Of a stretch of 64,000 nucleotides of DNA, positions 7,847-52,174 are shown one piece after another. Origin of the DNA: Corallococcus carmarthensis (GTDB lineage Bacteria; Myxococcota; Myxococcia; Myxococcales; Myxococcaceae). The position numbers and the translations under genes are program-made. The DNA lies in assembly GCF_003611695.1 (NCBI RefSeq), contig NZ_RAWE01000022.1, positions 1 to 64,000 on the forward strand, read 5' to 3'. The notes below the pieces were generated by a model. It saw only the letters and a program-made list of their open reading frames with translations, was not told where the DNA came from and did no database searches. Every line of letters starts with the position of its first letter. Within the stretch, counting starts at the first letter, position 1.

Positions 7847-9412
7847 TCACTGCTTAACCATGAATATACAATTTTCCACCCATGGTAAAGTCCACCGGCA
7901 CGGGGCGATCCGCCTTGGGCCCCTGCCAGCGTCACGCGCCCGGTGGGGGATGACGTAGAGGAAGGACGGGAGCCCTCCGGGTACCCGATCCAGCGAACGC
8001 GCCTGAACGTCACCGGACAGCAAAACGCCCTGCTTCCCGTGGGGTTGGGAAGCAGGGCGAGTGACCCCGACAGGAATCGAACCTGTGGCCTGCGGTTTAG
8101 GAAACTGGCCAGTGGGGATTGAGCGGCCTTCCCCAGCCTTCCTCTGCCTTGCCAAACCTTCGTTTTTATTCACGTTTCGGCCTCCATGTAGGTCCTCAAC
8201 CTTCCTTGGTAATACCTGCGCTTCCTCAGTCTTCACGCCACGTGGACGCCACGGGTCGAGCGTCGCCGCCACGGCGTCGGAGCCCGCGCGAACGTGCTCA
8301 GGCAGCGCCACCGCGTAGTGCGCGCGCGTCGTCTCCACGTCCGCGTGGCCCAGCACTTCGGCCACCAGGCGGATGTCCTTCGTTGTCTGGTAGGCCACCG
8401 TCCCCCACGTGGAGCGCAGGTGCTTGAAGCGCAGTGTGAGGGGAGTGCCCTTGGGCCACAGCTGGAAGTTGCACCGCGGGCACCGTGAGGGGGCATCGTT
8501 CTGGCGCTCCTCCCGGAAGCCGCAGCCTTTGCGCCGACACACGTGCGTCCAGGCCTGCACCAGGCGGGCCCGCACGAGGGCGCGGCGGATGATGTCGTGG
8601 ATTCGCCAGCTCGGCCCGAAGGGCTTAGTCGTTCCGGGCCGCGGGAAGAGGTGGGGGCCCGGCGTCGCTAGCTGTTCCTCAAGCGTCGGTACCAGCACCT
8701 CGGGAATGGGCACCCGACGCTCGCGCCCACCCTTCGTGGTGTCGCGGTGTCCGCTCCGGCGCACGAGGAGGTAGCGCTCCACGAGGTGGACCTCGTCCTT
8801 GCGCAGCACGCGCACCTCGCCCTTGCGGAGTCCCGTCAGCACGCTGGTGGCAACAGCCGGGCGATGCTCCGGGCTCAGGGCGGCGAAGAGCTGGGCGACC
8901 TGCTCCGGCGTGTAGAAGCCCACTTCGCGCTTGGGCACTCGCACCTTCCCAGCCTTCTTGAAGGGATTGGGCCCGGAGAAGAGGCCGGCCTTCTCGTCCA
9001 GGAACGAGTAGAGGCCCTGCCCTGCCATCCGCACGTGCTCACGCGACTGGGGGGAGAGCTTCGTCAGCTTCGCGAGCACCTGAAGCACGTCCGCCGGCGT
9101 GACGGAGTCCACGAGTCTGGTGCCCAGCGCCGTCGCCACGTAGCGCAGCTTCTGCTCCAGGTTGCGCTTGCTGGCGAACTCCGGCGGAAGTGCATCGAGC
9201 CGCATGCGGATGGCCGCAGCCACGGTCGGTACCTCTCGTCGCTCCGCCTCCAGTCCGGCTTCCTCTCGCCACGCGCGATGCTCCACTTCGTGCGCTTCGC
9301 GGCGCGCCTCAGTGAGCGTTCTCGCGGGAATGACCCGACGGTGCGGCTTACCGTCCTTCCCCACCCAGCCAATCCGGAACTTCCCTGACGGCAGCTTCTG
9401 CGCCCAGGCCAC
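7847..9412 (-). CDS. int: tyrosine recombinase (integrase) whose frame crosses the attachment site
   Basis: A 521-residue phage integrase. Catalytic residues: R196 (TGLRKGE), K330..R333 (FKHLR, with Lys where His is usual), H356 (LGHAD) and nucleophile Y366. An inserted zinc ribbon (C292, C297, C311, C314) lies between the first Arg and the second box. The start is GTG at 9412, behind GGAGGGAAG. The catalytic domain ends near residue 380, but the frame continues through the tRNA-Arg fragment (residues about 436-451) and stops in chromosomal DNA at 7847. The last 70 or so residues therefore come from the host. In myxophage Mx8 attP also lies inside the integrase gene, so integration changes the protein tail. 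The free-phage tail should be encoded at the far right end. Confidence 0.9.
   Translation of the reverse strand: MAWAQKLPSGKFRIGWVGKDGKPHRRVIPARTLTEARREAHEVEHRAWREEAGLEAERREVPTVAAAIRMRLDALPPEFASKRNLEQKLRYVATALGTRLVDSVTPADVLQVLAKLTKLSPQSREHVRMAGQGLYSFLDEKAGLFSGPNPFKKAGKVRVPKREVGFYTPEQVAQLFAALSPEHRPAVATSVLTGLRKGEVRVLRKDEVHLVERYLLVRRSGHRDTTKGGRERRVPIPEVLVPTLEEQLATPGPHLFPRPGTTKPFGPSWRIHDIIRRALVRARLVQAWTHVCRRKGCGFREERQNDAPSRCPRCNFQLWPKGTPLTLRFKHLRSTWGTVAYQTTKDIRLVAEVLGHADVETTRAHYAVALPEHVRAGSDAVAATLDPWRPRGVKTEEAQVLPRKVEDLHGGRNVNKNEGLARQRKAGEGRSIPTGQFPKPQATGSIPVGVTRPASQPHGKQGVLLSGDVQARSLDRVPGGLPSFLYVIPHRARDAGRGPRRIAPCRWTLPWVENCIFMVKQ
8062..8105 (-). other. attachment core: 3' fragment of a tRNA-Arg(CCU) gene
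   Basis: Read on the minus strand this is the 3' half of a tRNA: anticodon loop TTCCTAA (anticodon CCT, Arg), stem ACCGC, variable loop, T-arm ACAGG/TTCGATT/CCTGT, and acceptor strand CGGGGTC plus A. The 5' half is absent: upstream the anticodon stem no longer pairs. This is the duplicated core left when a phage integrates into a tRNA gene. The intact tRNA should stand at the other prophage end, beyond base 64000. The core lies inside the integrase frame. Confidence 0.75.
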
Positions 9413-9414
9413 GG

Positions 9415-9618
9415 TTACTTCCCTCCCCGCTGCTGCATCTCACGCCAGGCCAGGAGCCGCGCCGGGTCGAACCGCAGTGAACCGCCCACCTTGAAGCTGG
9501 GAACGCTGCCCTCTGCCGCGAGGCGGTAGAGCGTCTTCTCGCTGATGGCGAGGAACTGGGCGGCACGCCGCACGTCCCACGCGTCCTGCATCTGGCCGTT
9601 GCTGACTTCGCTGTTCAT
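9415..9618 (-). CDS. xis: excisionase-family helix-turn-helix protein
   Basis: A 67-residue protein with the AlpA/MerR-like winged-helix pattern of excisionase-family DNA-binding proteins: 'WDVRRAAQFLAISEKTLYRL' then GSVPSFKVGGSLRF and LLAW. The start ATG has GGGAGAAG upstream. It ends two bases before the integrase start, so the genes are translationally coupled. In phages such proteins direct integrase towards excision. A palindromic operator candidate (9668-9693) lies 50 bases upstream and may control the pair. Confidence 0.85.
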   Translation of the reverse strand: MNSEVSNGQMQDAWDVRRAAQFLAISEKTLYRLAAEGSVPSFKVGGSLRFDPARLLAWREMQQRGGK

Positions 9619-12624: not shown

Positions 12625-13422
12625 ATGACGGGCACCAACACAACCACGGGCACCGCGGAGAAACCGCCGGAGCGCAGCTTGGTGCGCAAGCTGGCCGAGG
12701 TCATGGGCGAGGTGGAGCGCGTCCCGAAGTCAGGGCGCAACGACTTCCACCGCTACGACTACGCGACCGAGGCAGACATCGTCTCGGCCGTTCGGAAGGC
12801 CATGGCGGACCGCGCCCTCATGCTGATTCCCTCCGTGGTGAAGACGGAGTGGCGCGAGGTGGAGCGCAACAAGGGCGGCAAGGACCGAATCGCAACGCTG
12901 ACCGTGCGCTTCACACTGACCGACGGCGACAGCGGCGAAGAGCGGTCGTTCGAGGTGCTCGGCGAGGGGCAGGACCAGGGCGACAAGGCCACGTACAAGG
13001 CGCTCACCGGAGCGGTGAAGTACGCCTTGCTCAAGCTCTTCCTGATTCCCACTGGCGATGACCCGGAGGATGACGGGCAAGGCCAAAGCCAGCAGTCCCA
13101 GCGCGGAAGCCAGCAGCGCCCTCGTCAAGCAATGGACGACGGACCGCCCCCTCAGCGCACGGGTGCCCCGGCTCCTCGCACTACTCCTCGGAGTGGAGGT
13201 GCCGACGACGTCGCCGCCGCCATCGTCTCTGAAGCCGAGCAGGTGACCAAGGAGGAGTTCCCCGCGCTCTACGGGCGTGCACAAGGCCTCCCCAAGGGGA
13301 GCAAGGCTCGGGAGGTGGCGGGCGAAGCCGTGAAGGCCTCCGCAAAGCGCCTGGGCTTCTCTGCCAAGCAGGTTGCCGCCATGCAGAAGCCGGTGGGACG
13401 CGAGCCCGGCGCGGAGGGCTGA
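12625..13422 (+). CDS. erf: ERF-family single-strand annealing protein
   Basis: A 265-residue recombinase of the ERF superfamily, which anneals single DNA strands in phage recombination. The core, residues 15-150, contains the motifs KSGRNDFHRYDYATEADIV, DGDSGEERSFEVLGEGQDQGDKA and 'YKALTGAVKYALLKLFLIP' before GDDPE, which are diagnostic of ERF proteins. A Gln/Pro-rich linker and a smaller C-terminal domain follow. ATG at 12625 has GGAGCGGAC upstream. It lies in the rightward early operon. Confidence 0.9.
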   Translation: MTGTNTTTGTAEKPPERSLVRKLAEVMGEVERVPKSGRNDFHRYDYATEADIVSAVRKAMADRALMLIPSVVKTEWREVERNKGGKDRIATLTVRFTLTDGDSGEERSFEVLGEGQDQGDKATYKALTGAVKYALLKLFLIPTGDDPEDDGQGQSQQSQRGSQQRPRQAMDDGPPPQRTGAPAPRTTPRSGGADDVAAAIVSEAEQVTKEEFPALYGRAQGLPKGSKAREVAGEAVKASAKRLGFSAKQVAAMQKPVGREPGAEG

Positions 13423-17259: not shown

Positions 17260-17703
17260 ATGTGCGGCGACCCGGTGTGCACGAAGCACCGCGGCGCAAC
17301 GCCCGCCCCGAACTCTCCGGCTCTTCCGGAGGGTTCGACTCCGCCCGCCGAACCTGAAAGCGGGGCTTACACGTTGGCGGCGCGACGCTGGCTGGCGGCC
17401 GTTGAGCGCGCGGCCTCGAATGAGGCCGTCGCGAGTCGCTACCTAGTCAACGCCAATGGCGCATCCGTCCACCCCGGGGCGCTGCGCGAGGCCGTCCGCT
17501 GGGTGCTCCGCGGAGACGAGCCGGTTTGCGGCGAGCCCTCCACCGTGCAGGGCAGCGGCAAACCCGCCTCAAACCCCATGCTGTCCGCGCTCGACGTGCG
17601 CACCGCGGCGCCGCCGGGTCTGCGAGTGCGCGCCTTCGTTAACACCGTCATCGCAACAAGGGCCGGGCTCTCCTCTTCCTGTCCCGGCTCCTCACTCGCT
17701 TGA
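17260..17703 (+). CDS. hypothetical protein
   Basis: A 147-residue protein from ATG 17260, with GAGGA five bases upstream. It starts MCGDPVCTKHRG, has a Pro/Ala-rich linker, then a helical segment (YTLAARRWLAAVERAASN) and a Ser-rich end. It follows the coiled-coil gene in the same direction and precedes the NACHT gene. Function unknown. Confidence 0.5.
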   Translation: MCGDPVCTKHRGATPAPNSPALPEGSTPPAEPESGAYTLAARRWLAAVERAASNEAVASRYLVNANGASVHPGALREAVRWVLRGDEPVCGEPSTVQGSGKPASNPMLSALDVRTAAPPGLRVRAFVNTVIATRAGLSSSCPGSSLA

Positions 17704-17821
17704 GAGAGCGTTGCGGCACTTCAGTGAACCTCTGACCTCTCTGCATCCCGAGCCGCTTGAGGTGCGCCTCTCGTCTCGGGTCCTGGGTTCTGCCAAAATG
17801 CCCACGGGGGGCAGCATTCGC

Positions 17822-20800
17822 ATGAGAGAGCACATGCCCAGGCAAATTCTGACGTTGTGGCTCTGCGCCACCATGACACTCGGTGACCTCGCACAGGCCG
17901 CGCAGACACAACAGGCACAAGACGTTTCACCGAGGCTCCGCGGGCTGCTCGCAGCTCTCGATGATCCGAGCGGCCAAGTGGCGGCTGGAGCGCTGCGGTT
18001 GTTGATCAAGGAGAAGCGGGTTCCGGATGAACAGATCCCGCGTCTCGGCCGCATGCTCAAGGACCCCAATCCGCAAACCCGCCTTGACACAGCGCAGGCT
18101 TTGGGAGTCCTCGGCAAGGCCGCCAAGCAGCACGCCCCCCTCCTCACCGGCCTTCTCAGGGATCCAGACGTGTCCGTCCGCCAAGCTGCTGCGGAGGCCC
18201 TGGGAGCCATGGGTGAGGCCGCCAAGGATCAGGCTCCCCTCCTCGTCGACATGCTCAAGGACCCGGATGTGAACGTCCGAATTGCAGCAACGTTTGCGCT
18301 GAGAGAAATGGGCAAGGCCGCACAGGATCAAACCCTACGACTTACCGGCTTGCTGAAAGACCAGCACGGTGGTGTCCGCGCAGCAGCAGTGCAGGTGCTG
18401 GTAGCCATAGGCAAAGTTCCCAAGGAGGAGGCTCCGCACCTCGGCGACCTGCTCAAGGCCCCCAAGGAGAGCGTCCGCTATGCAGCAACGCAAGCGCTGG
18501 GCGCCCTGGGCGAGGCAGCCAAGGAGCAAGCTCCACTCCTCGTTGGCATGCTCAAGGATCCGGATAGTGGCGTCCGTGAGGCCGCAGTTCTAGCACTGGG
18601 TAACATGGGCGAGGCAGCCAAGGAGCAGGCTCCACTCCTCGTTGGCATGCTCAAGGACCCTAATGAGAATGTCAGTAGAGGAGCAGCAAAGGCTCTGGGC
18701 GCCATGGGCGAGGCAGCCAAGGAACAAGCCCCCCTCCTCGTTGACATGCTCAAGGATCCAGACTGGTCCATCCTCATCCCTGCTTTGCAGGCGCTGCAAG
18801 CCATGGGCAAGGCCGCCAGGGAACAGGTCCCGCGCATTAGCAACCTGCTCAAGGATCCGTCACCGTTCCGTCGAATTGTAGCAGCGGAATTGCTGGGACA
18901 CATGGGCGAGGCAGCCAAGGAGCAGGCTCCACTCCTCGTTGGCATGCTCAAGGACCCTAATGAGAATGTCAGTAAAGGAGCAGCAAAGGCTCTGGGCGCC
19001 CTGGGCGAGACAGCCAAGGAGCAGGCTCCATACCTCGCCGACATGCTCAAGGACCCTAATGAGAAAGTCCGCGATGCGGCAGTGCAAGCGCTGCAATACA
19101 TGGGCAAGGCCGCTAAGGATCAAGCTCCGCACCTTGTCGGCCTGCTCAAGGACCCCGAGAAGGACGTCCGCAAGGAAGCAGCGGCGGCACTGGGAGCCAT
19201 GGGCGAGGCAGCCAAGGAGCAGGCTCCATACCTCGCCGACATGCTCAAGGACCCCGATGAGAAAGTCCGCCTTGCAGCAGCGAAGGCGCTGAGCGACATG
19301 GGCGAGTTTGACAGGAAGTACGCGCCTCTAGCTCTGGAGCTTCTGGAGAACGAAACAGTTCAGTATGACTATGAAGCCAAGGGTCTCCTCATGACCATGG
19401 CCCCGCTCGAACTCCAGCACGTTGTCCTGCTCCTGGCGAAGGCAAGCGCGAATCCATGGGATCGCAACGACTGGCTGTTATGCGCTCACGTTACGGGCGG
19501 TGGTGAGCCACCGGTGGAGCGCGTCCTACGTTGGCTCCCAAGGCGGGCCTTCGCGGGACTCCCAACGGAGCTGACGCTCGAGGAGGCCCGGGAGACGATG
19601 CATGCGTTCGCCGTGGTCTGGCAACATTCCGGGAAGTACCCTGACCTGCGGGATGATCTAGCGGAGCAGATTGTACGAGTGGCCAGCCTTACCAAAGGCC
19701 AGTGGACGCTCACTGACGACAAGCTACTCGTGCAGCATCAGACAAACCTGAAGGCCTCCTACCCGGCGCATGCCGAGAGACTTCAGGCCATCAGGTCCTC
19801 TCTAGAGAGCTGGGGGAGAGTGAAGACCTTCGCGTGGACCTGGGTGGGGCACCTCTGCTTCTGGTTGCTCCTCCTGTTCGTCTACCCACGCTCGCCGCAA
19901 GTCCAGGCGGTTTTCTTCTGGAATCCGTGGGTGCGCACCATCACGGGCTTCGGGTATGTGGGCCTTCTGTTGACATGGGTGCCGATCCTGCGGCGCCGCC
20001 TCCTCGCGCCCTTTGCGAACCAGCTCCTGGCGGATGCAGATCTCGAGCGTTTCCCCAAGGAGAGTTACTTCCACGGCTCCCAGGTCTTCATCCCGTCCGC
20101 GGGCCGGAGCGTCCCCCTGCTCTCCGCCGTCCCCCAGCTGCGAGGCCAAGTGGTCTTGGAGGGAGCCTCGGGCCTGGGCAAGTCGCTGTTCATCCGGTAC
20201 CTGCTCCGCCACTCGAAGCAGCTCACGGTGTTTCTGCCCGCAGAGCGATGCCGGGAGGGTGTACTTGAGGCCATCCAGGCCAAGCTGGAGGGGCATGCGA
20301 AGGACACCGCCTTCCTGCAGAGCATCATTTACAGCGGCGCACTGGACATCTACATCGACGGACTCAACGAGGTGACGGCAGACACGCGTGCTCGCATCGT
20401 CCAGTTCGTCGAGCGCAACTTCCACGGCAACATCCTGCTTGCCACCCAGCGCATGGAGTGGACACCGCCCATCACGGCGCGCCTGTACGTGCTGCAGCCC
20501 CTCTCCGACGCCCAGGTGTCCGAGTTTCTGGCCAGCCGTGAGGTGCTGCTGGGTGAGAAGGCGCGGCTGCGTGGTCCAGAGTACCTCCAGTCATGTGAGC
20601 GATTCGTGCAGCGAGTCCTCGCCCCCGAGCAGCCCGAGGAGCTGCGCCTGTCGATGCGCGAGGTGCTCTCCAACCCGATGGACCTCACCGTCATCGCGCA
20701 GATGCTGGGCGAGGGGCACTCGCCGGATCTGTTCCGCCTGCGGCAGCAGCAATACGAGCTGATGGCCAGGGACTACCTGGAGGTCAACCTCGCAGAGTTC

Positions 20801-21295
20801 CCGCTGAATGGGTTCGCCGAGGAGTGCCACAGGATGCGGCTCGAGGATCGGCCGTCTCTGCCGGAGGAGCGCTTCGGTAAGGAGTTGCTGCGCCTGGAGT
20901 CCTTCAAGATCGTGGTGCGCCGGCAGTGGAAGGGGCCTGACGGGCGGGAGCACCGCGAGTGGCGTTTCCGCCATGACAAGCTTCAAGAATTCTTCATCGC
21001 CCAGGCACTCCTGGGGCAGGGCAACCCCCGCATTGCCCAGCACATGGACGATCCGCGCTTCCGGGGCGTCTACTTCCTGTTGGCGCTGCTGATGGATCCG
21101 GAGAGCGCGCATCAACTGCGAGATCGGCTGGTCGTTCACGCCGCCAGGACCCGCGACCACAGCGTGAGCGATGAGTTCGTCACCCTGCTGGAGGCGCGGC
21201 GCAAGTCCGAGCAGCTCCTGCATGCGCCGCCCCCGCGACCGCAGGATGACTCAGATCCCTCAAACAAGCACGGAGGAGGCGAGCGCGTGGCATGA
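17822..21295 (+). CDS. HEAT-repeat / membrane / NACHT-like NTPase
   Basis: A 1157-residue protein from ATG 17822. In order: a hydrophobic N-terminus (ILTLWLCATMTLG), thirteen 33-residue HEAT/PBS-lyase-type repeats (about 67-495), a helical region, two hydrophobic helices (about 673-690 and 706-722), then a NACHT-like STAND NTPase with Walker A GASGLGKS (781-788), Walker B LDIYIDGLNE, and the C-terminal FRHDKLQEFFIAQ motif typical of NACHT winged-helix regions. Many bacterial NACHT proteins guard against phage, so a prophage copy may exclude other phages; that is inference. The topology conflicts: a cleaved signal peptide plus two helices would put the NTPase outside the cytoplasm, whereas the RRR after the second helix argues that it faces the cytoplasm. 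Confidence 0.75.
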   Translation: MREHMPRQILTLWLCATMTLGDLAQAAQTQQAQDVSPRLRGLLAALDDPSGQVAAGALRLLIKEKRVPDEQIPRLGRMLKDPNPQTRLDTAQALGVLGKAAKQHAPLLTGLLRDPDVSVRQAAAEALGAMGEAAKDQAPLLVDMLKDPDVNVRIAATFALREMGKAAQDQTLRLTGLLKDQHGGVRAAAVQVLVAIGKVPKEEAPHLGDLLKAPKESVRYAATQALGALGEAAKEQAPLLVGMLKDPDSGVREAAVLALGNMGEAAKEQAPLLVGMLKDPNENVSRGAAKALGAMGEAAKEQAPLLVDMLKDPDWSILIPALQALQAMGKAAREQVPRISNLLKDPSPFRRIVAAELLGHMGEAAKEQAPLLVGMLKDPNENVSKGAAKALGALGETAKEQAPYLADMLKDPNEKVRDAAVQALQYMGKAAKDQAPHLVGLLKDPEKDVRKEAAAALGAMGEAAKEQAPYLADMLKDPDEKVRLAAAKALSDMGEFDRKYAPLALELLENETVQYDYEAKGLLMTMAPLELQHVVLLLAKASANPWDRNDWLLCAHVTGGGEPPVERVLRWLPRRAFAGLPTELTLEEARETMHAFAVVWQHSGKYPDLRDDLAEQIVRVASLTKGQWTLTDDKLLVQHQTNLKASYPAHAERLQAIRSSLESWGRVKTFAWTWVGHLCFWLLLLFVYPRSPQVQAVFFWNPWVRTITGFGYVGLLLTWVPILRRRLLAPFANQLLADADLERFPKESYFHGSQVFIPSAGRSVPLLSAVPQLRGQVVLEGASGLGKSLFIRYLLRHSKQLTVFLPAERCREGVLEAIQAKLEGHAKDTAFLQSIIYSGALDIYIDGLNEVTADTRARIVQFVERNFHGNILLATQRMEWTPPITARLYVLQPLSDAQVSEFLASREVLLGEKARLRGPEYLQSCERFVQRVLAPEQPEELRLSMREVLSNPMDLTVIAQMLGEGHSPDLFRLRQQQYELMARDYLEVNLAEFPLNGFAEECHRMRLEDRPSLPEERFGKELLRLESFKIVVRRQWKGPDGREHREWRFRHDKLQEFFIAQALLGQGNPRIAQHMDDPRFRGVYFLLALLMDPESAHQLRDRLVVHAARTRDHSVSDEFVTLLEARRKSEQLLHAPPPRPQDDSDPSNKHGGGERVA
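18020..19306 (+). repeat. 13 tandem 99-base repeats encoding HEAT units
   Basis: The HEAT array is a coding tandem repeat with a 99-base period. Most units diverge, but 18604-18703 and 18901-19000 are identical except for one base, 297 bases (three units) apart. This points to recent unequal recombination or gene conversion within the array. Confidence 0.85.
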
Positions 21296-21444
21296 GGCAG
21301 CGGCCAGGAAGGTGCGGATGAAGTAGAGGACACCGCGAGTGGACTGGGCAGAGTTTAACAGGAGGACATTTGCGGACACGCCCTGGTCCTCGTCCCGGAT
21401 GAAGTCTGCCGCGCTTGCATATTGGCCCAAGTTGGAGGGTCGAC

Positions 21445-21632
21445 ATGCAGGGGCCTGGAGTGAAGCTGAAGCAGGCGGAGAAGGAGGCGCTGGACGCGCT
21501 GATGTCTCGTACGGTGGCGTCTGCGACACCTGCTCCATCCCCGGGCGCAACAACCAGTGCGGCTCGCTGTGCAGCAACCCCGCGCAGTGCCAGTACTCCG
21601 CGTCCGGCAACTTCCACACCTGCGGATTCTGA
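21445..21632 (+). pseudogene. small Cys-rich peptide gene with a frameshift
   Basis: ATG 21445 has a strong ribosome site (GGAGGG) and opens with a leader-like helix KLKQAEKEALDALMSR. Downstream, in another frame, is a compact Cys-rich segment: GGVCDTCSIPGRNNQCGSLC, then CQYSASGNFHTCGF and a stop at 21632. Joining the two near base 21500 gives a peptide of about 60 residues with six cysteines. As it stands, the first frame runs on in low-quality sequence to 21681. It may be a sequencing error, a real mutation or a recoding site. It could be a precursor peptide or disulfide-rich peptide; no modification enzyme is nearby. Confidence 0.45.
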
Positions 21633-35824: not shown

Positions 35825-38305
35825 TTACGGAGGAGGCGTGGACGAAATCCCCAGGGTAAGGGTGGCAGGCACCGTGGGCACGGACACCACGAGGACGCTC
35901 GCCGCGCTGGTGCTGTAGTTGCCCGAGGTGTCGATGGCCTTCACGTGCACCAGCTGGTTGGTGCCCGGCGCCGGCAGGGCCCATTCGTAGGTGGTGGCTC
36001 GCACCTTGCCGATGAGGCTGCCCACCTCCCAGCTGCTGCCGTAGCGCAGCTCGTAGGTGTCCCGGTCCAGGTCCGGCACCTCCGCCCAGCGCAACGTCGC
36101 GGTGCTTCCGTTGAGGACGCAGGTGAGGCCCGTCACGTTGGAGGGAGGGGCCGCCTTGCCCACCACGGTGTGGCTGGCCGAGGCGTAGGTGGTGACGAGG
36201 CCGTTGAGGACGGCGGCCACCTGGACGGTGTACTCGCCCGGCAGGCAGTCCTGGAGCTCCCAGAAGTGCGTCTGCACCGGTGGCTCCGACGTCCAGTTGC
36301 CGCCCTCGCGCCGCCAGCGCACGCGGTACTCCGTGGCCGTGGCCACCTGCGTCCAGCGGGCCGTCACCATGACCTTCACGCCACCATTCGTCGTCTTGTA
36401 CAGCGACTCGCCCACCGCGAGGCCCGCAGGTGGCGCGGACGAGGGCAGCACGGACGTGGGCAAGGGCTGCAGCTTCACGCCGTGCTCCACCTCCGCGTAC
36501 TTCCCCGGCTCGTGGCGCAGGGCGGTGATTTCGTAGAGGTGCGGCTCCACCTCCGCGACGTTGAGGATGCGCCAGAGGGTGGGCGTCAAGTCGGACGCGG
36601 CCAGCACCCAGACGGCCTGGGGCTGGGGCGCGGCCGAGAAGGGCGTGGCCACCGTGAGGGCCCGGTACGGCGCCGGCGCGAGCGCGGCCAGCGGGCGCTC
36701 CTCCACGGTGCCGTCCGGCAGCACCGCGGAGAGGGCGTACGTCTTCCCTGCTTCCAGGGTGACGTCCGCGTCGAGCTCCACCTGGCTGGCGGTGGCGGCC
36801 ACCACGCGCCCGCCCCACCTGCGCCCGGCGCGGTATGGGTCCTGGAGCTTCACCACGGCGCCGGGGTTGCGCATGGCGCCCTCGAAGCCGGTGCGGAACG
36901 TCACCGTCTCCGTCTCCAGCCTCTCGGTGAGGAGCAGCCACCGGCCCACGCGCTGCGCCTGGCCCCGGGAGGTGCAGCCGAGCGCCACCACCTCGGTGGG
37001 GTTGTAGCCGTAGGTGGCGAGGCCCTCTTCGTCGGTGACGTACTCCTGGGCCACCTTGAAGTGGTTGTCCGGGTCGTTCCAGCTGACGAGGGCCACCGTG
37101 TGGCGTGCGCGCTTGCCGCTGGAGGCATACGTGAAGAGGCCCTCCACCACGTTGGCCGGCGTGAAGAGGTACTCGGCGTCGCGCGGCGCGTCCTGGGCGA
37201 CGAAGACGGCGCCGGAGGCCCAGTACGTCATGCCGCGGAAGACGGACGCGAGGTTGTTGATGACCTTGTACGCGTCCTCCTGCGTCTGGAGGTAGAGGTT
37301 GCAGCGGAAGCGCGGCTCCATGCCGCCCTTCCCGTCCGGCACCAACTCGTCGCAGTACTTCCCCACCGTGTAGAGGCCCCATTTGTCCACGGCGGCCTCG
37401 TTGAGGTAGCGGCCCAGGCCGTAGCGCTTCGTCGTCAGCAAGTCGTAGAAGCACCAGGCCGGGTTGTCCGTCCAGGCCACCTTCCACGTGCCGTCCCAGG
37501 TGCCCTCGTACGTCCGGGCCACGGGGTTGTAGTTGCTGGGCACGCGCACCCGCAGCCCGCGAATCCGGTAGCTGCGCGTGGGGATGCTGCTGAACTGGCT
37601 CGCCGGCACCTGCAGCGCGCAGAGGGCGGTGTTGGGGAAGGAGAGCTTCTCGTCCAGCAGCGTTGCGTAGGACTTCCAGAGGACCTTGTTCTGCTTCGTG
37701 ACGCTGTCGGCCTCCTCGCTGACGCGCGTGACGCGGATGTCCCACGGGGGCGAGCCCGTCAGCTCCACGCGGAAGGTGCGCTCGTAGGGGCTGGTGCACT
37801 TCCCGCGGAAGAGCTCCGCGCCCTGGAAGGACTGCTCCACGTAGCCGCCGCCGTTGCTCTGCACGGCGATGGAGACGAGGACGCGGGTGGGCAGCAGGTC
37901 GCCCGTCGTCGGATCCTGGTAGGTGAGCTGGGGCGCCTGGAGGGTGACGCGCACGGCGTCCACCCCCGGGTCCGTCACGGTGCGCACCACCGGGGTTGCG
38001 TGCTTCACCTCCACGCCCACGGAGTACTCCGCCTCGCCGGACGGGAAGCCGGGGATGTACTCCTGGGACTGCGTGCCGCGCACGTCGTAGACGGTGACGC
38101 CGGTGAAGTTGAAGGTGCCGTCGGGATTCTGGATGGCGACGCCGTCCAGGTAGACGGACTTCAGCCCGTCGACGAGGCCCTGAATCTCCCCCTCGCACAG
38201 CAGGTCCAACACGCGCGCCTTGGAGCTGGACTTCAACGTGTTCGGAGACTCGACGGGCGTCCGCTGGGCGCCGCCCTCCCCCTTGCCGCCGCTGCTGCCA
38301 CCCAT
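35825..38305 (-). CDS. tail tip protein J (host specificity)
   Basis: An 826-residue gpJ-type central tail fibre: N-terminal SPNTLKSSSKARVLDLLCEGEIQGL and 'VYLDGVAIQNPDGTFNF', then YIPGFP, are diagnostic, followed by the phage-tail core and fibronectin type III-like domains near the C-terminus (YRVRWRREGGNW, TYELRYGSS). It determines receptor contact at the tail tip. It is shorter than lambda J (over 1100 residues), since receptor binding may be shared with the next gene. Starts one base after the gpI stop. Confidence 0.9.
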   Translation of the reverse strand: MGGSSGGKGEGGAQRTPVESPNTLKSSSKARVLDLLCEGEIQGLVDGLKSVYLDGVAIQNPDGTFNFTGVTVYDVRGTQSQEYIPGFPSGEAEYSVGVEVKHATPVVRTVTDPGVDAVRVTLQAPQLTYQDPTTGDLLPTRVLVSIAVQSNGGGYVEQSFQGAELFRGKCTSPYERTFRVELTGSPPWDIRVTRVSEEADSVTKQNKVLWKSYATLLDEKLSFPNTALCALQVPASQFSSIPTRSYRIRGLRVRVPSNYNPVARTYEGTWDGTWKVAWTDNPAWCFYDLLTTKRYGLGRYLNEAAVDKWGLYTVGKYCDELVPDGKGGMEPRFRCNLYLQTQEDAYKVINNLASVFRGMTYWASGAVFVAQDAPRDAEYLFTPANVVEGLFTYASSGKRARHTVALVSWNDPDNHFKVAQEYVTDEEGLATYGYNPTEVVALGCTSRGQAQRVGRWLLLTERLETETVTFRTGFEGAMRNPGAVVKLQDPYRAGRRWGGRVVAATASQVELDADVTLEAGKTYALSAVLPDGTVEERPLAALAPAPYRALTVATPFSAAPQPQAVWVLAASDLTPTLWRILNVAEVEPHLYEITALRHEPGKYAEVEHGVKLQPLPTSVLPSSAPPAGLAVGESLYKTTNGGVKVMVTARWTQVATATEYRVRWRREGGNWTSEPPVQTHFWELQDCLPGEYTVQVAAVLNGLVTTYASASHTVVGKAAPPSNVTGLTCVLNGSTATLRWAEVPDLDRDTYELRYGSSWEVGSLIGKVRATTYEWALPAPGTNQLVHVKAIDTSGNYSTSAASVLVVSVPTVPATLTLGISSTPPP

Positions 38306-38306
38306 G

Positions 38307-39365
38307 TCAGTCCTCCACCGTTGGGTCCGCCTTCTTCACGTTGTGGCTGAGGAGGCCGTCGGAGACGTAGGTGTGCGCGCCCGCCACGGTGAGGCGTACC
38401 ACCGGCCCGCGCTCACCGCGCGTCACCTGGCGCACCACGCCCGGCCGGGCGCCCACCAGTCGCGTGCCGGCCGCGAGGTGCCGCAGTTCCACCCAGGCGT
38501 CCTCCGTCCGCACGCGGTGGGTGCCGGTGGCCTCCAGGCGTCGGCCGTCCTCCAACTCCAGCAGCCAGCGGACGCCCTCGGCGGGCTCCGCTGCGATGAC
38601 GGGGAAGACGTCCCACTCCAGCGTCTCCTCGTCCTGGGTGCGCACCGCCATGCCCACCTGGACTTCGCCTGCCGGCACTTCCCGGCCGTCCGCCAGGAGG
38701 ATGGGCACCCACGGCGCGGGGCAGGTGCCGCCGCCAGGGGTGGTTCCGCCGACGCCCGTCTGTCCGCTGCCGCTGTTGCCCCCGAAGCCGCCGTCGGACC
38801 ACTCGGTGACGATGCCGGCGGAGACGACGCAGCTGCCCACCTCCATCTCCCCGTAGCAGATGGGCACCGGGTGGCCCTGGGCGAGCGTGTTGACGGGGCC
38901 GTTGAAGACGTAGCTGGGCTTGTTGGCGTCCTTCTCGTCAGGCCCATTCGCGGTGGGCGGGGCGAAGAGGAGCTGGGAGACGCCGCCGGCCATCAGGGAG
39001 ATGCCCGCGGTGATGAGGGGCACGCCCGCGCCGTACCCGTAGACGGAGAGGACGACGCCGGCGGCGATGAGCACCGCACCCGCCACCACCTGGAACCAGC
39101 CGGACTTCGCCCCGGCCAGCGCGGGCATGAGGGTGAGGACGCGCGCGCCGGTGGGCATGCCCAGGTCGTCCTCCCCCACGTCCCGCTTGCCCGCGAAGAC
39201 GTGGTAGCCGGGCTCGCTGTTCTCCGCGAGGTAGCGCCGGAAGCCGTCGCAGACGGCCGAGAGGGCGCGCACCGCCTCCGCAGGCGAGGGCACCGAGAGG
39301 TCCATCTTCCACACGCGCCCGAAGCGCTTCCCCAGCGGACCACCCAGGACGATGGTCGTCAGCAT
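38307..39365 (-). CDS. tail assembly protein I with C-terminal Hint domain
   Basis: A 352-residue protein. The first 210 residues match lambda gpI: an N-terminal ubiquitin-like part (MLTTIVLGGPLGKRFGRVW), a hydrophobic middle (VAGAVLIAAGVVLSVYGYG) and PVPICYGEM.VGSCVVSAGI. Residues 215-352 add a Hint domain: Cys1 in CPAPWVPILL, block B TGTH, and LLSHN near the end, followed by VKKADPTVED. Hint on a gpI homologue is unusual. It overlaps the gpK stop by seven bases. The Hint may clip itself off during assembly. Confidence 0.8.
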   Translation of the reverse strand: MLTTIVLGGPLGKRFGRVWKMDLSVPSPAEAVRALSAVCDGFRRYLAENSEPGYHVFAGKRDVGEDDLGMPTGARVLTLMPALAGAKSGWFQVVAGAVLIAAGVVLSVYGYGAGVPLITAGISLMAGGVSQLLFAPPTANGPDEKDANKPSYVFNGPVNTLAQGHPVPICYGEMEVGSCVVSAGIVTEWSDGGFGGNSGSGQTGVGGTTPGGGTCPAPWVPILLADGREVPAGEVQVGMAVRTQDEETLEWDVFPVIAAEPAEGVRWLLELEDGRRLEATGTHRVRTEDAWVELRHLAAGTRLVGARPGVVRQVTRGERGPVVRLTVAGAHTYVSDGLLSHNVKKADPTVED

Positions 39366-40090
39366 CGGGAGACGTGCCTCACGACGCGCTGGGTGATGCG
39401 CTCCCAGAAGCCGGAGTACGTCTCCCGGCCGGACAGGCGCCCCATGACGTGGTGCAGGAGGACATCCCCGCCCAGGTAGACGCCCGCGTGGTTGGGCACC
39501 GGGGCGCGCAGCTGCATAAGGAGGACGTCATGCTCGCGCAGGGCCTGGCCCGTCACATCCACGAAGCCCGCCCGGCCGAAGCCCTCCTGGTAGAGGTTGC
39601 CACCCTTCGCCCACCAGTCGTCCGGGCGCTCGAAGTCGGGCAGTGCCAGGCCCAGGCGCTCCCGGTAGTAGTCCTGGATGAGGGAGTAGCAGTCCAGGAC
39701 GCCGTGGCTGAAGGTGCGGCCCACCAGCGGCGGCCGGTAGCCGTCCGGGTACCAGAGGCACCAGTGCCCCACCGGCACGTTGAGGATAAGCCAGGGCAGG
39801 CCCCAGCGCTCCATCATCACCCGGTCCGCCTCGCTCGGCTCCGGCGCGGCGTTGGGGTGGGAGTGCACCACTGCCACCACCTCGCCATCCCCTTCCGCCC
39901 GCGCATAGTCCTCGGGCGACAGGACGAAGTGCGCCTGGCCGTCGGCGAGGTTCCGGCAGGGCCGGTACCGCTGGGCGCCTCCAACCAGCACCACGAGGCC
40001 GCAGGACTCGCGGGGATAGTCCGCCTGGGCGTGTGCGAACGCGGCGCCCAGGACGTCATCAGCCAGCGTCAGCCGGCAGGGGTCGACCAT
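39359..40090 (-). CDS. tail assembly protein K (JAMM plus NlpC/P60)
   Basis: A 243-residue gpK homologue with two enzyme domains: an N-terminal JAMM metalloprotease (Glu28, H76SH78P, Asp89) and a C-terminal NlpC/P60 peptidase (Cys134 in VLDCYSL, His201 in NHAGVYLG). In lambda-like phages this protein acts in tail tip assembly and may open peptidoglycan during entry. Its neighbour gpI follows directly. The gpL gene that normally precedes it is 2.5 kb away because accessory genes have been inserted. Confidence 0.9.
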   Translation of the reverse strand: MVDPCRLTLADDVLGAAFAHAQADYPRESCGLVVLVGGAQRYRPCRNLADGQAHFVLSPEDYARAEGDGEVVAVVHSHPNAAPEPSEADRVMMERWGLPWLILNVPVGHWCLWYPDGYRPPLVGRTFSHGVLDCYSLIQDYYRERLGLALPDFERPDDWWAKGGNLYQEGFGRAGFVDVTGQALREHDVLLMQLRAPVPNHAGVYLGGDVLLHHVMGRLSGRETYSGFWERITQRVVRHVSRC

Positions 40091-40146
40091 GCCGGCATCG
40101 TCGGCGGTAGCGTGGACGACGTCCCTTCAGACTCTGCACGCCAACA

Positions 40147-40974
40147 TCAATGCTGCATCTCGTTGATGACCGCATCCACGAACTGCAGGCGACACTCCGG
40201 AGCGGGATGTTTCGACTGCGCTTCGCCCTCATCACATCGGATTGGCAGAACCAGAGCCGGCTGCTCGCACGAAACGGAATTGATCCCGGCATCGGCAAGA
40301 TCGGCACGGGCGCGCGCAATCATCTTGGCGACAGGCGTATTGGGCGACTCGGCGAGAGCCCGGAGTTCCTCGTTCGTGACAACACCACCGTCGGCGCGCT
40401 TCATGTTTGGCCCTCTCAACCGGAGCATCAGCTGGAAAGAGCATGACTCAACGGAACGCGCGAACAGGCGCGCGCTCTCTTTATCTATTTTATCCTTCGC
40501 CTTTGGCCCGGCCCAGGCCACCCGACAGTCCTTGATGACGGGCCGCTTGAGGAGGAGGCCTCGCACTGTACCGTGGAAGGCAACAAGCTGCCCCTTCGCC
40601 AGCTCCGCGACGGCTTGCATCTGCTCGTCCGGAACAAGGCACATGACAGAGCTCATCATCTCGCCCACGTCCAGCGAGATGACGATGTTATCTGTCGCGT
40701 CCTTGGCAATGTCTTGGATGAGTCCCGTCACCTCCACCTGCTTGCTGCGGTACTTCATGTCCGCTGCCACCTCGTTCTCGGCGTAAGCCTCCCAAAGCTG
40801 GCGCGGGCCCACGAGGATGAGCCCTGGTGCGGCAGGAGCTGGAGGTGGACTGGGAGCCCTGGCGGCTGGGCCCGAGGTATCGCTGGGTGCTGCTGCCACC
40901 TGCTCCGGGGCCCGTCCCGCCTCCTGCTTGCACCCGACTACCGTCAGCACTGCAACAAGCCACCACGCGCGCAT
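40147..40974 (-). CDS. lipoprotein with OB-fold (tRNA_anti-like) domain
   Basis: A 275-residue lipoprotein with lipobox VVGC (LTVVGCKQEAG) and a Pro/Ala-rich linker. Residues about 60-150 (LWEAYAENEVAADMKYRSKQ, VEVTGLIQDIAKDA, MCLVPDEQ, GQLVAFHGTVRGL) fit the tRNA_anti-like OB-fold family of bacterial lipoproteins. The rest is unassigned. ATG 40974 follows GGAGGGG. It lies between gpL and gpK genes but is no tail protein; as an exported phage lipoprotein it may block superinfection. Confidence 0.65.
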   Translation of the reverse strand: MRAWWLVAVLTVVGCKQEAGRAPEQVAAAPSDTSGPAARAPSPPPAPAAPGLILVGPRQLWEAYAENEVAADMKYRSKQVEVTGLIQDIAKDATDNIVISLDVGEMMSSVMCLVPDEQMQAVAELAKGQLVAFHGTVRGLLLKRPVIKDCRVAWAGPKAKDKIDKESARLFARSVESCSFQLMLRLRGPNMKRADGGVVTNEELRALAESPNTPVAKMIARARADLADAGINSVSCEQPALVLPIRCDEGEAQSKHPAPECRLQFVDAVINEMQH

Positions 40975-41067
40975 CGTCCCCTCCAGTGAGACGTGGGAGG
41001 ACAGCACGGGGCACCAGAACGACGCAAGGAGTCGGGCTTGGCGGCGGGCGTCTCTGGAAAGGATGGA

Positions 41068-41604
41068 TCACACCTCCACCAGCAGAACCGCCAGGGCCAG
41101 CAGCCGCTCCCGGACGCGGGCGCGCAGGGTGGCGGCGGCGGCCACGGCACGGCGCCAGGCATTCAGCGCGGCGGACGCCTCGCGCGCCAGCTCCGCCAGC
41201 AGCAGCGGCACGGGACGACGCGACAGATTCGTGGCCTGGGCGCAGTAATCACGTGCGGGACCCGTGCGGCCCGCGCTTCGGTACAGCGTGGCCCGGCGTG
41301 CGAGTAGCTCCGCGCGGGCCTCCCCTGACGCGGCGGACACCAGCCTGCCCAGTGGCTCCAGCCGCTCTGCCTCTTCTTCCGGCGTGCCCGTGCCGGGCGG
41401 AGGCAGCAGGTCCAGCAGCGCCTGTGCCGCCCACGCGTCCAGCGGCCCCTCCGCCAGTAGGCTGCGCAGCGAATCTGCGGCGGCGCTCGCGCGGCCCAGT
41501 GCGAGGCACAGCTAGGCTAGTTCGCGGCGGGCCTGACAGCGGGCGTCGCCCGCCAGCCGGGGTCGCAGTTCCACCACGTCTCCCACGCCTCGCGCAAGTT
41601 GGCA
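41068..41604 (-). pseudogene. TPR-protein gene fragment with in-frame stop
   Basis: Read leftward, VVELRPRLAGDARCQARRELA is followed by TAG (41512-41514) and continues in the same frame as LCLALGRASAAADSLRSLLA and on to LLALAVLLVEV at 41068. It is a helical TPR-like C-terminal fragment with a nonsense mutation and no start. It resembles, in style, the fragment at 45956-47050. Confidence 0.55.
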
Positions 41605-41611
41605 AGCCGCG

Positions 41612-42517
41612 TCAGATGACCTCGATGGTCGGCTCAGCGTCTTCACCAGTGCCAACTGCGAGAACGCTCCGCCGCCGAGCCGGGTCAGCCTTCGAGCGCT
41701 CCTTCGCAACTTTCTGAACGAGGTCAGCTCGGTGGATGGTCGCGGCCGCTTCCGCCTTCACATCGTTCACGACCACGAGGCCGCAGGACGATGAGAGGTG
41801 ACGGGGCACTCCTTTCACCTTGACCGTCTCCCCGGAGAGCGATGCCAAGGCCGCATGCAGGCGACGCCGTGCCTGTTCCAGCGGAGTCGCTGGCATCACG
41901 ACAACAACCTCATCACCGCCCTTTCTGTAGGCATCGCCCACGTCGGAGACTGCCTTTTCGAGGACATGGAAGAACGCCTTGATGGCCTCATCGCCAGTGG
42001 CGTGATCACCGTCCTCGTTGAATGCCTTGAGCCCGTTCATGTCGAGATAGGCCACAGAAACTGGCGAATCTGCCTGGATATTCATAATGGCGATCGCCAA
42101 GTCACGCTCAGCATAGCGTCCATCGTAAAGGATATCAAAAGGCTCTCGAAGCCGGGTCGCCCGAAGCTCGTCTTGCAGTCGCGCCAATTCCAGTCGACCC
42201 AGGTGGCCCATCTCCAGGCCTACAGTCTGCCCCGACAATAGCCGCCCGACAAGCAATGCCTGTTCTCGGCGGTCTTCGCTCTCCATCTGCTGGGCGAGCG
42301 TACTCGTGTATCGCATGTCGATAGAGTCATAGCCCCTTCGAGTATCGGGGCCATTGAGGATGCCGCGATGAATGAGCGACATCACCATTTGCATTTTTTT
42401 CGCGGACATGAACTCACTCCCGCCCAGAGGGAATGAAACGCTAATCCAGCGCTCCTGCTCAAATCGAGCAAGGAACTGCAACTCGCGGAAACGAGCATCA
42501 TTCACGTAGTCAGCCAT
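41612..42517 (-). CDS. GGDEF-domain protein
   Basis: A 301-residue protein from ATG 42517 (a frame to 42541 is also open). The N-terminal half is helical and unassigned. The C-terminal half is a GGDEF domain: 'YLDMNGLKAFNEDGDHATGD' and the active-site-like RKGGDEVVVVMP (GGDEV instead of GGDEF, about 200-204). GGDEF enzymes make cyclic di-GMP. Metal-binding Asp residues are kept, so activity is possible. Found between gpL and gpK, it is an accessory gene that could act on host signalling or in defence. Confidence 0.75.
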   Translation of the reverse strand: MADYVNDARFRELQFLARFEQERWISVSFPLGGSEFMSAKKMQMVMSLIHRGILNGPDTRRGYDSIDMRYTSTLAQQMESEDRREQALLVGRLLSGQTVGLEMGHLGRLELARLQDELRATRLREPFDILYDGRYAERDLAIAIMNIQADSPVSVAYLDMNGLKAFNEDGDHATGDEAIKAFFHVLEKAVSDVGDAYRKGGDEVVVVMPATPLEQARRRLHAALASLSGETVKVKGVPRHLSSSCGLVVVNDVKAEAAATIHRADLVQKVAKERSKADPARRRSVLAVGTGEDAEPTIEVI

Positions 42518-42664
42518 GCCGGATGGGTCCTCGTGCGCCATACACAGGCAGCAACGCCTGCTTTGTCAGCGAACCATAAGAGAAGAAGACAACGGGGCAG
42601 AAGCACTATCCCTTGGCCAGCGGAATGCCTCAGGGGTCTTCATGACCCGCCCGAGAAAAGAAGC

Positions 42665-43360
42665 CTACCGGATCAGCCCTACCGCCGGAAATCCCCCGTA
42701 CGGAAGCACTGCGGTAGTCCCAAAGCGCAGCTTGCAGCTTGTGAGGCGCTTCCCGCAGCGGTCCTCGGTGGCACTGGACGTCAGCGTATCGTCCAGCTTC
42801 GCTACCGGGGGCCCCGCGTAGCCGCAGCCCTCCCCCCGGTACTCCCAGGGGCACATCTGCGTGATGATGCGCAGGGGGATGCGGACGCCGTCCAGGTCGC
42901 ACTTCGCGGCCAGGCTGAACTCGATGACGTGCTTGTTCTCCACCGTCTTCTGATCCACCACGAATTCGTCGTCCGGGAAGGCATCCAGCGGCGAGGCGGT
43001 GGGGTTGACGCCCCCGGGGTAGTTCACCGCGTCCAGGTAGCGGACGAAGGTGCGCTTCCGGAGGACGCGCGCGCCCAGCAGATCGTTCAAGTCCCGCGCC
43101 ATGGCGCCGATGGTGCCGGCGACGTTGGCGAGCGTCAGGGTGGGCCGGGGCAGCCGGCCCATGCCCGACTTGTCGAAGCCCTTCACCTGGATGGCCCAGG
43201 GCTCGTACGCCATGCCCTGCCAGACGACGGGCCCGCGGAGGCCATTGGTACCCGCGTGGAAGTGGCTGACGCCCCCGCCAGGCAGGTTGGTGGCGTCCAG
43301 GACGAAGAGCTCCACGAGGGCCCCCGCGTCCAGCCTCTGGATGTCGTTGGCGATGCTCAC
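42665..43360 (-). CDS. minor tail protein L
   Basis: A 231-residue gpL homologue: NDIQRLDAGALVELFVLDAT at the start and conserved cysteines in AKCDLDG, MCPWEYRGEGCGY and DRCGKRLTSCKLRFG, which in gpL ligate an iron-sulfur cluster or metal. GTG 43360 overlaps the stop of gpM (GTGA), so the two are coupled. It bridges tail tube and tip. Confidence 0.9.
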   Translation of the reverse strand: MSIANDIQRLDAGALVELFVLDATNLPGGGVSHFHAGTNGLRGPVVWQGMAYEPWAIQVKGFDKSGMGRLPRPTLTLANVAGTIGAMARDLNDLLGARVLRKRTFVRYLDAVNYPGGVNPTASPLDAFPDDEFVVDQKTVENKHVIEFSLAAKCDLDGVRIPLRIITQMCPWEYRGEGCGYAGPPVAKLDDTLTSSATEDRCGKRLTSCKLRFGTTAVLPYGGFPAVGLIR

Positions 43361-43944
43361 CCTGCCTCCTCCTGGAACGTCGCAGTGAAGTCGTAGGCAT
43401 TGAAGCCCTTCGCGGTGCGGTGCCACTCCTCGCACACGACGTGCGCCACCAGTTCGCCCGCGCCGGTGAAGGTGAGCGCCGCCCCAGCGGCTGGCGCCGC
43501 AGTGAAGGTGACGAGACCCGAGGCAGAGAGCACGTAGGCGGTCCCCGCCACCTGGGCGACGCCCGCCACGTAGACGGTGGGCGGCGCCGACCAGTCTGCG
43601 GCGGGCACCAGCAGATGCGGCATCTCCGGGGACAGCGGACGCTGGAGGAGCCACTGTGTCCGCGCCTCGTCTCCCACCCCGAAGGGCTGCGCGGCGACCG
43701 ACCAAGCTGTGTCCGGGGTGACGAACTCGAAGGGCTCGACGCCCGCGCGGGCGCGCAGGAAGGACTCCAGGGCGTCCGCGTCCACCTTCGTGAGGCTGGA
43801 GAACTGGAGGGCCCAGCGCCGCAGGACGGGGTTGAGTCCGTCCCCGGATCGCTGGGTGTAGCCCTCACCGAACTGCGCCTTGCGCACCCGGAGCACCGAG
43901 TCCGCCTGGGCCCCGTAGTCCGGAGTGAAGGGGAAGCGCTCCAT
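43357..43944 (-). CDS. minor tail protein M
   Basis: A 195-residue gpM homologue: MERFPFTPDYGAQ, 'VRKAQFGEGYTQRSGDGLNP' and WALQFSSL are diagnostic of the family. The C-terminal half has a beta-rich insert not found in lambda gpM (109 residues), ending GFNAYDFTATFQEE. It is the first tail-tip gene after the inserted region that separates it from the tape measure gene. Confidence 0.9.
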   Translation of the reverse strand: MERFPFTPDYGAQADSVLRVRKAQFGEGYTQRSGDGLNPVLRRWALQFSSLTKVDADALESFLRARAGVEPFEFVTPDTAWSVAAQPFGVGDEARTQWLLQRPLSPEMPHLLVPAADWSAPPTVYVAGVAQVAGTAYVLSASGLVTFTAAPAAGAALTFTGAGELVAHVVCEEWHRTAKGFNAYDFTATFQEEAG

Positions 43945-44163
43945 GGCCTACCGCCCCCTTTTGGGCATCCACCTGGTCATGCGGCAGATCATTGGCGACA
44001 GCGTGGACGGTGGCCGTCGTGACTTCGAGGCAGTCCTGAAGCGCAGTCGTCCATCCTGACGCTAGGGCGGACCGCCCCTTCGCTGCATGTAAAGTCTCGC
44101 TCCTCAGGTCCTGCTCCCTAACAAGAGCGTCTCCGCCGCATTTTCCGAGTTACAGTTGCAAGG

Positions 44164-44598
44164 CTAGTATGGAATGTCCTCGTCCGAGGAAATGCCATCC
44201 TTGACTGAGACGCGGACGCAACTGTCGCAGAGTCTCTTTCCAGAGAATTCTCCCGCGCCCGGCGAAGTAACCAAGGGCCACGGGGCGGTATACGGAACAG
44301 ACTTGCGGCACTTTGCGCAAGTAACGAATTTCGCCTTTAGGCGTGATTGCTCACTCGATTTGGGGACCAATAGAAGTTCTTGAGCGGTGCCGTTGCTAAA
44401 GTGAGCGCATAGCTCATCTGCAGTGAGCCTTTTTGCGCGAACAAGATCAGCCGCACTTCGGCAGAACTCCACAACCGCCTTTAGGCAGGCGCTGCAATAG
44501 ATGACCGGGTCCTTGCCTAGTTGAATGCGCGCCCAGTCGTCCACGCGCTGGGAGCAGAATCGACAAGGAAGCTGACCGGATTTCTTCACTCGTGCCAC
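44164..44598 (-). CDS. double zinc-ribbon protein, hypothetical
   Basis: A 144-residue protein from GTG 44598 with a very strong ribosome site, AAGGAGGTGA. Two Cys4 pairs (CRFCSQ with YCSACL, and CAKCRKS with LCDSCV) suggest two zinc ribbons around a helical segment. It is part of the inserted region between tape measure and gpM. Function unknown. Confidence 0.65.
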   Translation of the reverse strand: MARVKKSGQLPCRFCSQRVDDWARIQLGKDPVIYCSACLKAVVEFCRSAADLVRAKRLTADELCAHFSNGTAQELLLVPKSSEQSRLKAKFVTCAKCRKSVPYTAPWPLVTSPGAGEFSGKRLCDSCVRVSVKDGISSDEDIPY

Positions 44599-45311: not shown

Positions 45312-45445
45312 CTACTCAACAAAGGTGTGCGTCATTCCACCTGGGGCCCTCTCCTCGCGCCTCACCTTGCGGACTGCGTCAAGGCGGCGGCCCAGGCGCT
45401 TCGCCTCAGCGCGCCCTCGTCGGCGCTCGCCTTGACGCTGGGGGC
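45312..45445 (-). pseudogene. displaced 3' end of a tape measure gene
   Basis: Read leftward in the frame ending at TAG 45312, this gives RAEAKRLGRRLDAVRKVRRE and then APGGMTHTFVE. The end of the intact tape measure protein (47318) is RAEAERLGRRLADAVRKVMR, then APGGMTYTFVRGR. Upstream, in another frame, SVKASADEG matches QVSASGEG. It is a frameshifted relic of the same gene end, separated from the living gene by the HNH and TPR insert. Confidence 0.7.
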
Positions 45446-45486
45446 GCTGCGCCAGGTTCGGACCGGCGGCCGCAGTTCAGCAGCAG

Positions 45487-45804: not shown

Positions 45805-45955
45805 GCGGCCTCCTGGGTGCCCACGTGGCGGCAGTGCTACGTGGGGAACCCCAATAGCATACCACAAAAGACCACATTGGACCACCTGCACGAATGAATG
45901 AGCCCCGCATATGCGGAGTAGCCGCTGGGCGGCTGAGTTACTGACGACGCCAAGC

Positions 45956-47050: not shown

Positions 47051-47072
47051 GCGGGCGGCCGCGGCTCTACCT

Positions 47073-47210: not shown

Positions 47211-47317
47211 ACCCACCACGTAACGAATTGATCTAAAAATTTGACGGATGGTCCGTTCTCCCCATACCCCTGGTCGGCGCCTCGACCATGGACGGGGTAC
47301 GCCCCTCCCCTCTTCTC

Positions 47318-51061: not shown

Positions 51062-51159
51062 GCTCCAGCCCTTTCACGCAAACCCACGATCCTCAACGCC
51101 CGCCACAACTGAACACACGTCAAGTGGAACTACTCACACAAACATGGTGGCATCGGGGC

Positions 51160-52146: not shown

Positions 52147-52174
52147 TCGCCTGCCATTACCAATCCATCTCTCC

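Follow-up and report, generated by a model that had tools for sequence, protein, structure and literature searches.

Why should a myxobacterial prophage carry a gene for a large membrane protein in which HEAT repeats precede a nucleoside triphosphatase (NTPase), and on which side of the membrane would such a protein sense its target? The gene in question, here called the HEAT-TM-NACHT gene, lies in a 64,000-bp stretch of the Corallococcus carmarthensis genome (contig NZ_RAWE01000022.1, positions 1 to 64,000; "the window" below). We tentatively favour the reading that it encodes a transmembrane, receptor-like NACHT (STAND) NTPase in which an outside sensor triggers a membrane-acting response, and that it is prophage cargo protecting the host. 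The NACHT fold, signal peptide, membrane block, hypervariable HEAT side and prophage slot on which this reading is built are each evident from sequence comparison and prediction. That the protein has the layout signal peptide, HEAT array, membrane block and NACHT part is very likely, and the same architecture was seen in dozens of relatives, far beyond chance. An initial annotation made from the sequence alone had listed a hydrophobic N-terminus, 13 HEAT units, two hydrophobic segments and the motifs GASGLGKS, IDGLNE and RHDKLQEFFIAQ, all of which are present, and the order it gave, with N-terminal repeats parted from the NTPase by membrane segments, proves to be a conserved feature of the family. 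The open reading frame has no internal stop; an alternative in-frame start exists upstream at 17456, and 17822 was taken as the start because it gives the protein an N-terminal signal peptide like that of the relatives. Each of the HEAT units is exactly 33 amino acids long (self-identity 0.47 at lag 33, and 0.47–0.50 over lags 33, 66 and 99), and the array matches Pfam HEAT_2 with an E value of 7e-86. About 100 helical residues, and no more, follow the winged helix, and the last residues show no conservation across the family.

The NTPase part is classified here as NACHT, with the statement that the Pfam threshold is unmet: the window protein does not reach the gathering score of PF05729 and has only sub-threshold AAA_16 and AAA_22 matches, while seven of eight relatives have weak Pfam NACHT matches (best E value 0.001). 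Single-sequence scans with Pfam, NCBIfam, PADLOC and PHROGs gave this part no name, PADLOC has no model for it, and sequence searches of the PDB returned P-loop noise only, with NLRC4 at an E value of 0.15. The strong PADLOC and NCBIfam matches were rejected as an identity for the protein, being confined to the HEAT repeats. Despite this, hhalign comparison of a profile from the eight relatives with a profile from eight NACHT proteins of related genomes gave a 97.7% probability and an E value of 1.8e-12 over 311 columns (254–573), from the P-loop through the winged helix; against a control profile of other STAND-type (nSTAND/AP-like) proteins the alignment was confined to 32 columns at the P-loop. 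In the predicted structure the mean predicted local distance difference test (pLDDT) value is 67, with most of the NTPase core at 70–90, and the top VIA-align rows are NLRC4 (Z 14.8), NLRP3 (14.2) and NOD2 (12.7), with ORC/RFC rows at about 11. Foldseek alone had placed ORC/Cdc6 and p97 beside these NOD-like receptors (NLRs); VIA-align told the NLRs apart from both. The G, K, D, G, L, N and E of the Walker motifs are invariant in the eight relatives, and a GK[ST] Walker A, an hhhhDGxxE Walker B, an NPxxL motif and a winged helix were all found, with NACHT as the closest known fold. The initial annotation had proposed a NACHT-like NTPase and had named the absence of such similarity in a profile search among the outcomes that would overturn it; the similarity is there, and the assignment stands.

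Which side of the membrane the repeats occupy is indicated by the two ends of the HEAT region. The N-terminal sequence MREHMPRQ-ILTLWLCATMTL-GDLAQA/A (slash, cleavage-like position) has the n-h-c layout typical of secretory signals; residues 9–20 are hydrophobic and GDLAQA/A forms a cleavage-like A-x-A. A similar start, mostly with an A-x-A or V-x-A cleavage-like end, is found in nearly every relative whose N-terminus is complete, across several phyla (signal peptides were judged by eye and hydropathy). In the membrane block a first hydrophobic segment leads into Y-P-[RK]-S-P-x-V-Q-A-x-F-F-W-N-P-W-V-R(R), after which come another hydrophobic stretch and R-R-[RK]-L; this YPRSPxVQAxFFWNPWVRR...RR block is near-invariant and common to nearly all complete relatives. 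The loop between the segments contains K and R and almost no acidic residues. Basic residues on both flanks of the second stretch, and its internal prolines in several cyanobacteria (WFPPF), suggest that it does not cross the membrane; the repeats would therefore be periplasmic and the NACHT part cytosolic, an arrangement we consider probable. The membrane segments agree with the membrane-associated sensor initially proposed, and the signal peptide refines that proposal from mere association to a predicted extracytoplasmic HEAT array. It is also conceivable that the N-terminus is only an anchor, that the two segments make a hairpin, leaving HEAT and NACHT both in the cytosol, in which case the protein would be an NLR relative of rearranged order with a membrane effector. 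An even count of hydrophobic segments would put both parts on one side, and sensing by STAND proteins is mostly intracellular, but the classical signal peptides of nearly all complete relatives and the charge of the inter-segment loop make such an arrangement unlikely. Secreted neighbours also speak against it: a DUF4412 gene upstream in some myxobacteria and a small secreted-protein gene overlapping downstream in rhizobia both carry secretion signals, which fits outside sensing. Overall, we judge outside sensing somewhat the better supported alternative.

The HEAT side is the variable part of the protein. Across relatives, median identity rises from 0.33 on the HEAT side to 0.51 in the NACHT part and 0.58 in the membrane block, so that the block is as conserved as the NACHT part or more. 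Two cyanobacterial copies (L114 and L117) are 97% identical in the NACHT part and 63% on the HEAT side, with synonymous divergence (dS) of 0.18 and 1.09, respectively; this sixfold difference indicates block-wise replacement or homogenisation of the HEAT array. Between L119 and L122 (NACHT 95% identical) whole units have been gained or lost, and the ratio of nonsynonymous to synonymous divergence (dN/dS) is 0.93 for HEAT versus 0.17 for NACHT. Units of some proteins are 0.72–0.79 alike internally versus about 0.4–0.6 between proteins, and the most variable unit positions (10, 7, 6, 14, 11 and 18; entropy peaks, mean over nine proteins) lie on one face of helix A.

In the mechanism we propose, the signal peptide would direct the HEAT solenoid to the periplasm, and the membrane segment and near-invariant loop would join it to the cytosolic NACHT and winged helix. 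An extracytoplasmic ligand binding the variable HEAT face would release autoinhibition; ADP on the NACHT part would be replaced by ATP, oligomers would form, and leak, growth arrest or death would follow from the action of the conserved hydrophobic block, as relay or effector, on the inner membrane. On a prophage such a protein would be host-protective cargo, which in the simplest case detects, at the envelope, a second phage or some other attacker.

The setting of the gene bears on this last step. The prophage location given by the initial annotation is confirmed by an integrase, an excisionase-like gene and lambda-like head and tail genes, and IMG/VR holds the same 74,417-bp contig as viral. 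Compared with a related prophage in G029, a further genome of the genus, the window shows a match of about 88% as far as 16488 and shredded similarity as far as 17616, and the match resumes at 21517; in the interval G029 has 7.4 kb of different genes, so the HEAT-TM-NACHT gene appears to be exchangeable cargo. Its place as variable cargo in this slot (17616–21517) is as expected of a prophage superinfection-exclusion protein. The gene might instead be a captured, non-functional passenger, its insertion, mediated by insertion sequences (IS), having displaced phage genes in a decaying prophage. IS91 and IS630 remnants do lie on its 3' side, its C-terminus ends in IS sequence, and phage genes that G029 has, such as a thymidylate-kinase-like gene, are missing here; the frame is nevertheless open over its full length with all motifs intact, and the last residues are unconserved in the family anyway, which leaves this explanation very improbable. 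Repeat matches on the 3' side, considered as a candidate RNA element, proved to be these transposase remnants.

The family is apparently unnamed and has members in Myxococcota, Cyanobacteriota, Planctomycetota, Nitrospinota and rhizobial plasmids. No description of it was found in the open-access literature searched, which excluded the main bNACHT survey, and an earlier description is possible. A substantial homologue is present in 11 of the 96 genomes of its own bacterial family, this one included and with no second copy here, and fragments occur in a few more. Further homologues were found in Archangium, Hyalangium, a planctomycete metagenome-assembled genome, Phormidesmis and Nitrospina, and plasmid copies in Calothrix, Mesorhizobium and Rhizobium; among the genomes sampled, the family occurs in 19 of 386 from cyanobacteria, 2 of 294 from planctomycetes and 1 of 77 from Nitrospinota. 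No relative was found in deposited phages, in E. coli genomes (by a near-identity DNA search only) or in any other IMG/VR contig. In the tree the prophage copy stands beside one from a different genus and apart from two of its own genus, a placement consistent with horizontal movement. The rhizobial proteins retain the signal, membrane block and NACHT part, and Pfam finds no HEAT in them and matches nothing in their N-terminal domain. With the exception of a few broken copies, the in-frame stops reported in cyanobacterial matches were the genes' own natural stops. We note that one Archangium violaceum genome has three copies on two contigs (L032, 9010–10788 and 15676–18942; L035, 2–2788), one of which lacks the HEAT side.

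Several points tell against the favoured reading. The relatives are not in defence islands, and most of them stand alone, on chromosomes or plasmids, with ordinary genes as neighbours; no enzymatic effector domain was found in the protein; and NACHT proteins have non-immune roles too. If both hydrophobic segments crossed, NACHT would lie outside, away from ATP, and the assignment of the second as non-crossing draws on its charge pattern and on a model of weak confidence there (pLDDT about 50–60). Positive selection on the HEAT side is not proven, since its dN/dS is below 1 in every pair, and recombinational replacement of the array explains much of the HEAT divergence.

A family-wide conserved partner gene was looked for and none was found; the local partners are the DUF4412 gene (in a few myxobacteria), the secreted gene of rhizobia (166–168 amino acids) and a gene of about 158 amino acids in four cyanobacteria, which lies upstream of the NACHT gene in L114, L116, L117 and L120. 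Upstream of a Mesorhizobium plasmid copy (L047, 3984–7115) are a trypsin-like peptidase/endonuclease-phosphatase-like fusion and a hydrolase-like gene that resemble a conflict system. An antiphage function is plausible, with no support from the relatives as regards defence islands; superinfection exclusion, the role initially proposed, is possible, but the genomic surroundings of the relatives do not favour it above kin recognition or envelope sensing. The same transmembrane receptor could serve self/non-self (kin) recognition or the sensing of envelope damage rather than of phages, with the prophage copy as passenger cargo. In keeping with such a role, most of the genes stand alone on the chromosomes of bacteria that are multicellular or social (myxobacteria, cyanobacteria), the variable repeat arrays are like those of fungal NLR allorecognition genes (PMC4986451), and this same prophage has duplicated SUKH (SMI1/KNR4) genes, a kind known as immunity proteins. 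The prophage slot of the present copy and the plasmid copies form a pattern common for defence genes, however, and we regard kin or envelope sensing as rather unlikely, though less so than a wholly cytosolic protein. For a defence outcome as such, our confidence falls somewhat short of even.

Features of the gene and of the prophage around it (positions in the window)
Feature	Position	Strand	Basis or remark
HEAT-TM-NACHT gene	17822..21295	+	1157 aa (amino acids)
Predicted secretory signal peptide, residues 1-26, cleavage-like AQA/A	17822..17899	+	hydropathy, A-x-A motif, position conserved in nearly all complete relatives
HEAT array, 13 units, predicted periplasmic sensor, residues 79-507	18056..19342	+	Pfam, unit self-identity
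Helical linker with conserved GGGEP/WL motifs	19343..19825	+	alignment, predicted structure
First transmembrane segment (TM1), residues 669-688	19826..19885	+	hydropathy, alignment
Near-invariant PRSPQVQAVFFWNPWVR loop	19886..19939	+	alignments
Second hydrophobic segment, residues 707-723, likely in-plane or re-entrant	19940..19990	+	arginines on both sides in the family; broken helices, low pLDDT
Walker A GASGLGKS, residues 781-788	20162..20185	+	
Walker B / NACHT DGxxE motif IDGLNE, residues 845-850	20354..20371	+	
LSNPMDL, NACHT NPxxL motif, residues 949-955	20666..20686	+	alignment, profile-profile
RHDKLQEFFIAQ, end of NACHT winged-helix region, residues 1050-1061	20969..21004	+	
Variable slot	17616..21517	.	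synteny with G029 prophage ends and restarts
IS91-type transposase remnant	21256..21370	+	provides last ~13 codons and stop
IS630-like transposase 5' remnant	21380..21504	.	
C-terminal remnant of Cys-rich lipoprotein gene	21517..21632	+	intact in G029
Phage integrase	7847..9412	-	Pfam PF00589; left end of prophage
Excisionase-like helix-turn-helix protein	9415..9618	-	Pfam HTH_17
ERF recombinase gene	12625..13422		
Structural and packaging block (terminase, portal, major head, tape measure, tail tip J; tail J/L/K-type)	35825..63807	-	PHROGs

Other features of the prophage deserve mention. The integrase frame (7847–8120, minus strand) seems to continue into sequence like the 3' end of a tRNA gene, which suggests an attachment site near 8.1 kb, and a tRNA-Thr(CGT) lies at 14384–14452, within the early region. 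An early gene at 15960–16165 contains a short zinc-finger-like coding stretch with a weak Zf_WRKY19 match, and its DNA is 75–85% identical in nearly every genome of the bacterial family, being common to phage and hosts. Immediately past the variable slot, positions 21754–22794 encode a 346-amino-acid protein with a weak eCIS_core match (DUF4157-like, HEXXH-type HEAAH) and 88% DNA conservation in the G029 prophage. A cassette duplicated at 3879–5033 and 24365–25844 (78% DNA identity), with more relatives across the genus, contains a small secreted or lipoprotein-like gene followed by a SUKH gene and resembles a polymorphic toxin/immunity type of pair. An IS630-type transposase in two overlapping frames (25846–26957) lies between the SUKH gene and a phage DNA methylase.

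Bacterial and animal NLRs have been studied as cytosolic sensors, and a NACHT switch with an outside sensor would amount to a Toll-like or receptor-kinase design on an NLR engine. The family may represent a cross-phylum class of transmembrane bacterial NLRs, in which hypervariable periplasmic HEAT ectodomains, diversified by repeat turnover or swapping, drive a cytosolic NACHT and attackers are sensed at the envelope before entry, a generalisation we hold with more doubt than the defence outcome itself. It would make outside-in NACHT activation directly testable, and the variable HEAT array would be a natural library with which to map recognition.

Among known systems, the animal NLRs NLRC4, NLRP3 and NOD2 are the closest solved folds to the NACHT region, but they have a cytosolic, C-terminal leucine-rich-repeat sensor and lack the signal peptide, HEAT repeats and membrane block; the domain order here is probably the reverse of the textbook NLR, with the sensor outside. 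KAP P-loop NTPases also have membrane segments, which in them interrupt the NTPase between the two Walker motifs, whereas here the segments (669–723) precede Walker A (781) and Pfam gives no KAP match, so that the KAP arrangement is absent. The NLR-related bNACHT antiphage proteins, as described in PMC12169576, which cites a 2023 Cell paper on them, have an N-terminal effector, a central NACHT and a C-terminal sensor; they share with the present protein a NACHT NTPase with a winged helix, a single large polypeptide and plausibly sensing repeats, but in the present protein the repeats follow a signal peptide on the N-terminal side, a membrane segment precedes NACHT and no effector enzyme is recognisable. 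Given the order published there, with repeats and membrane block N-terminal here, the protein is a variant and not a canonical bNACHT member. Fungal STAND NLRs resemble it in their internally similar repeat arrays, changes in unit number and variable surface positions, but their WD, ANK or TPR repeats are cytosolic and C-terminal to the NTPase (PMC4986451). Finally, NACHT/STAND proteins diversified by diversity-generating retroelements combine NACHT with C-type lectin (CLec) sensors that are hypermutated by the retroelement, where the present family has HEAT repeats (PMC10907252). Outside sensing in the STAND class has some precedent, since a NACHT protein whose lectin sensor is predicted to be periplasmic has been put forward for a multicellular bacterium (PMC10907252).
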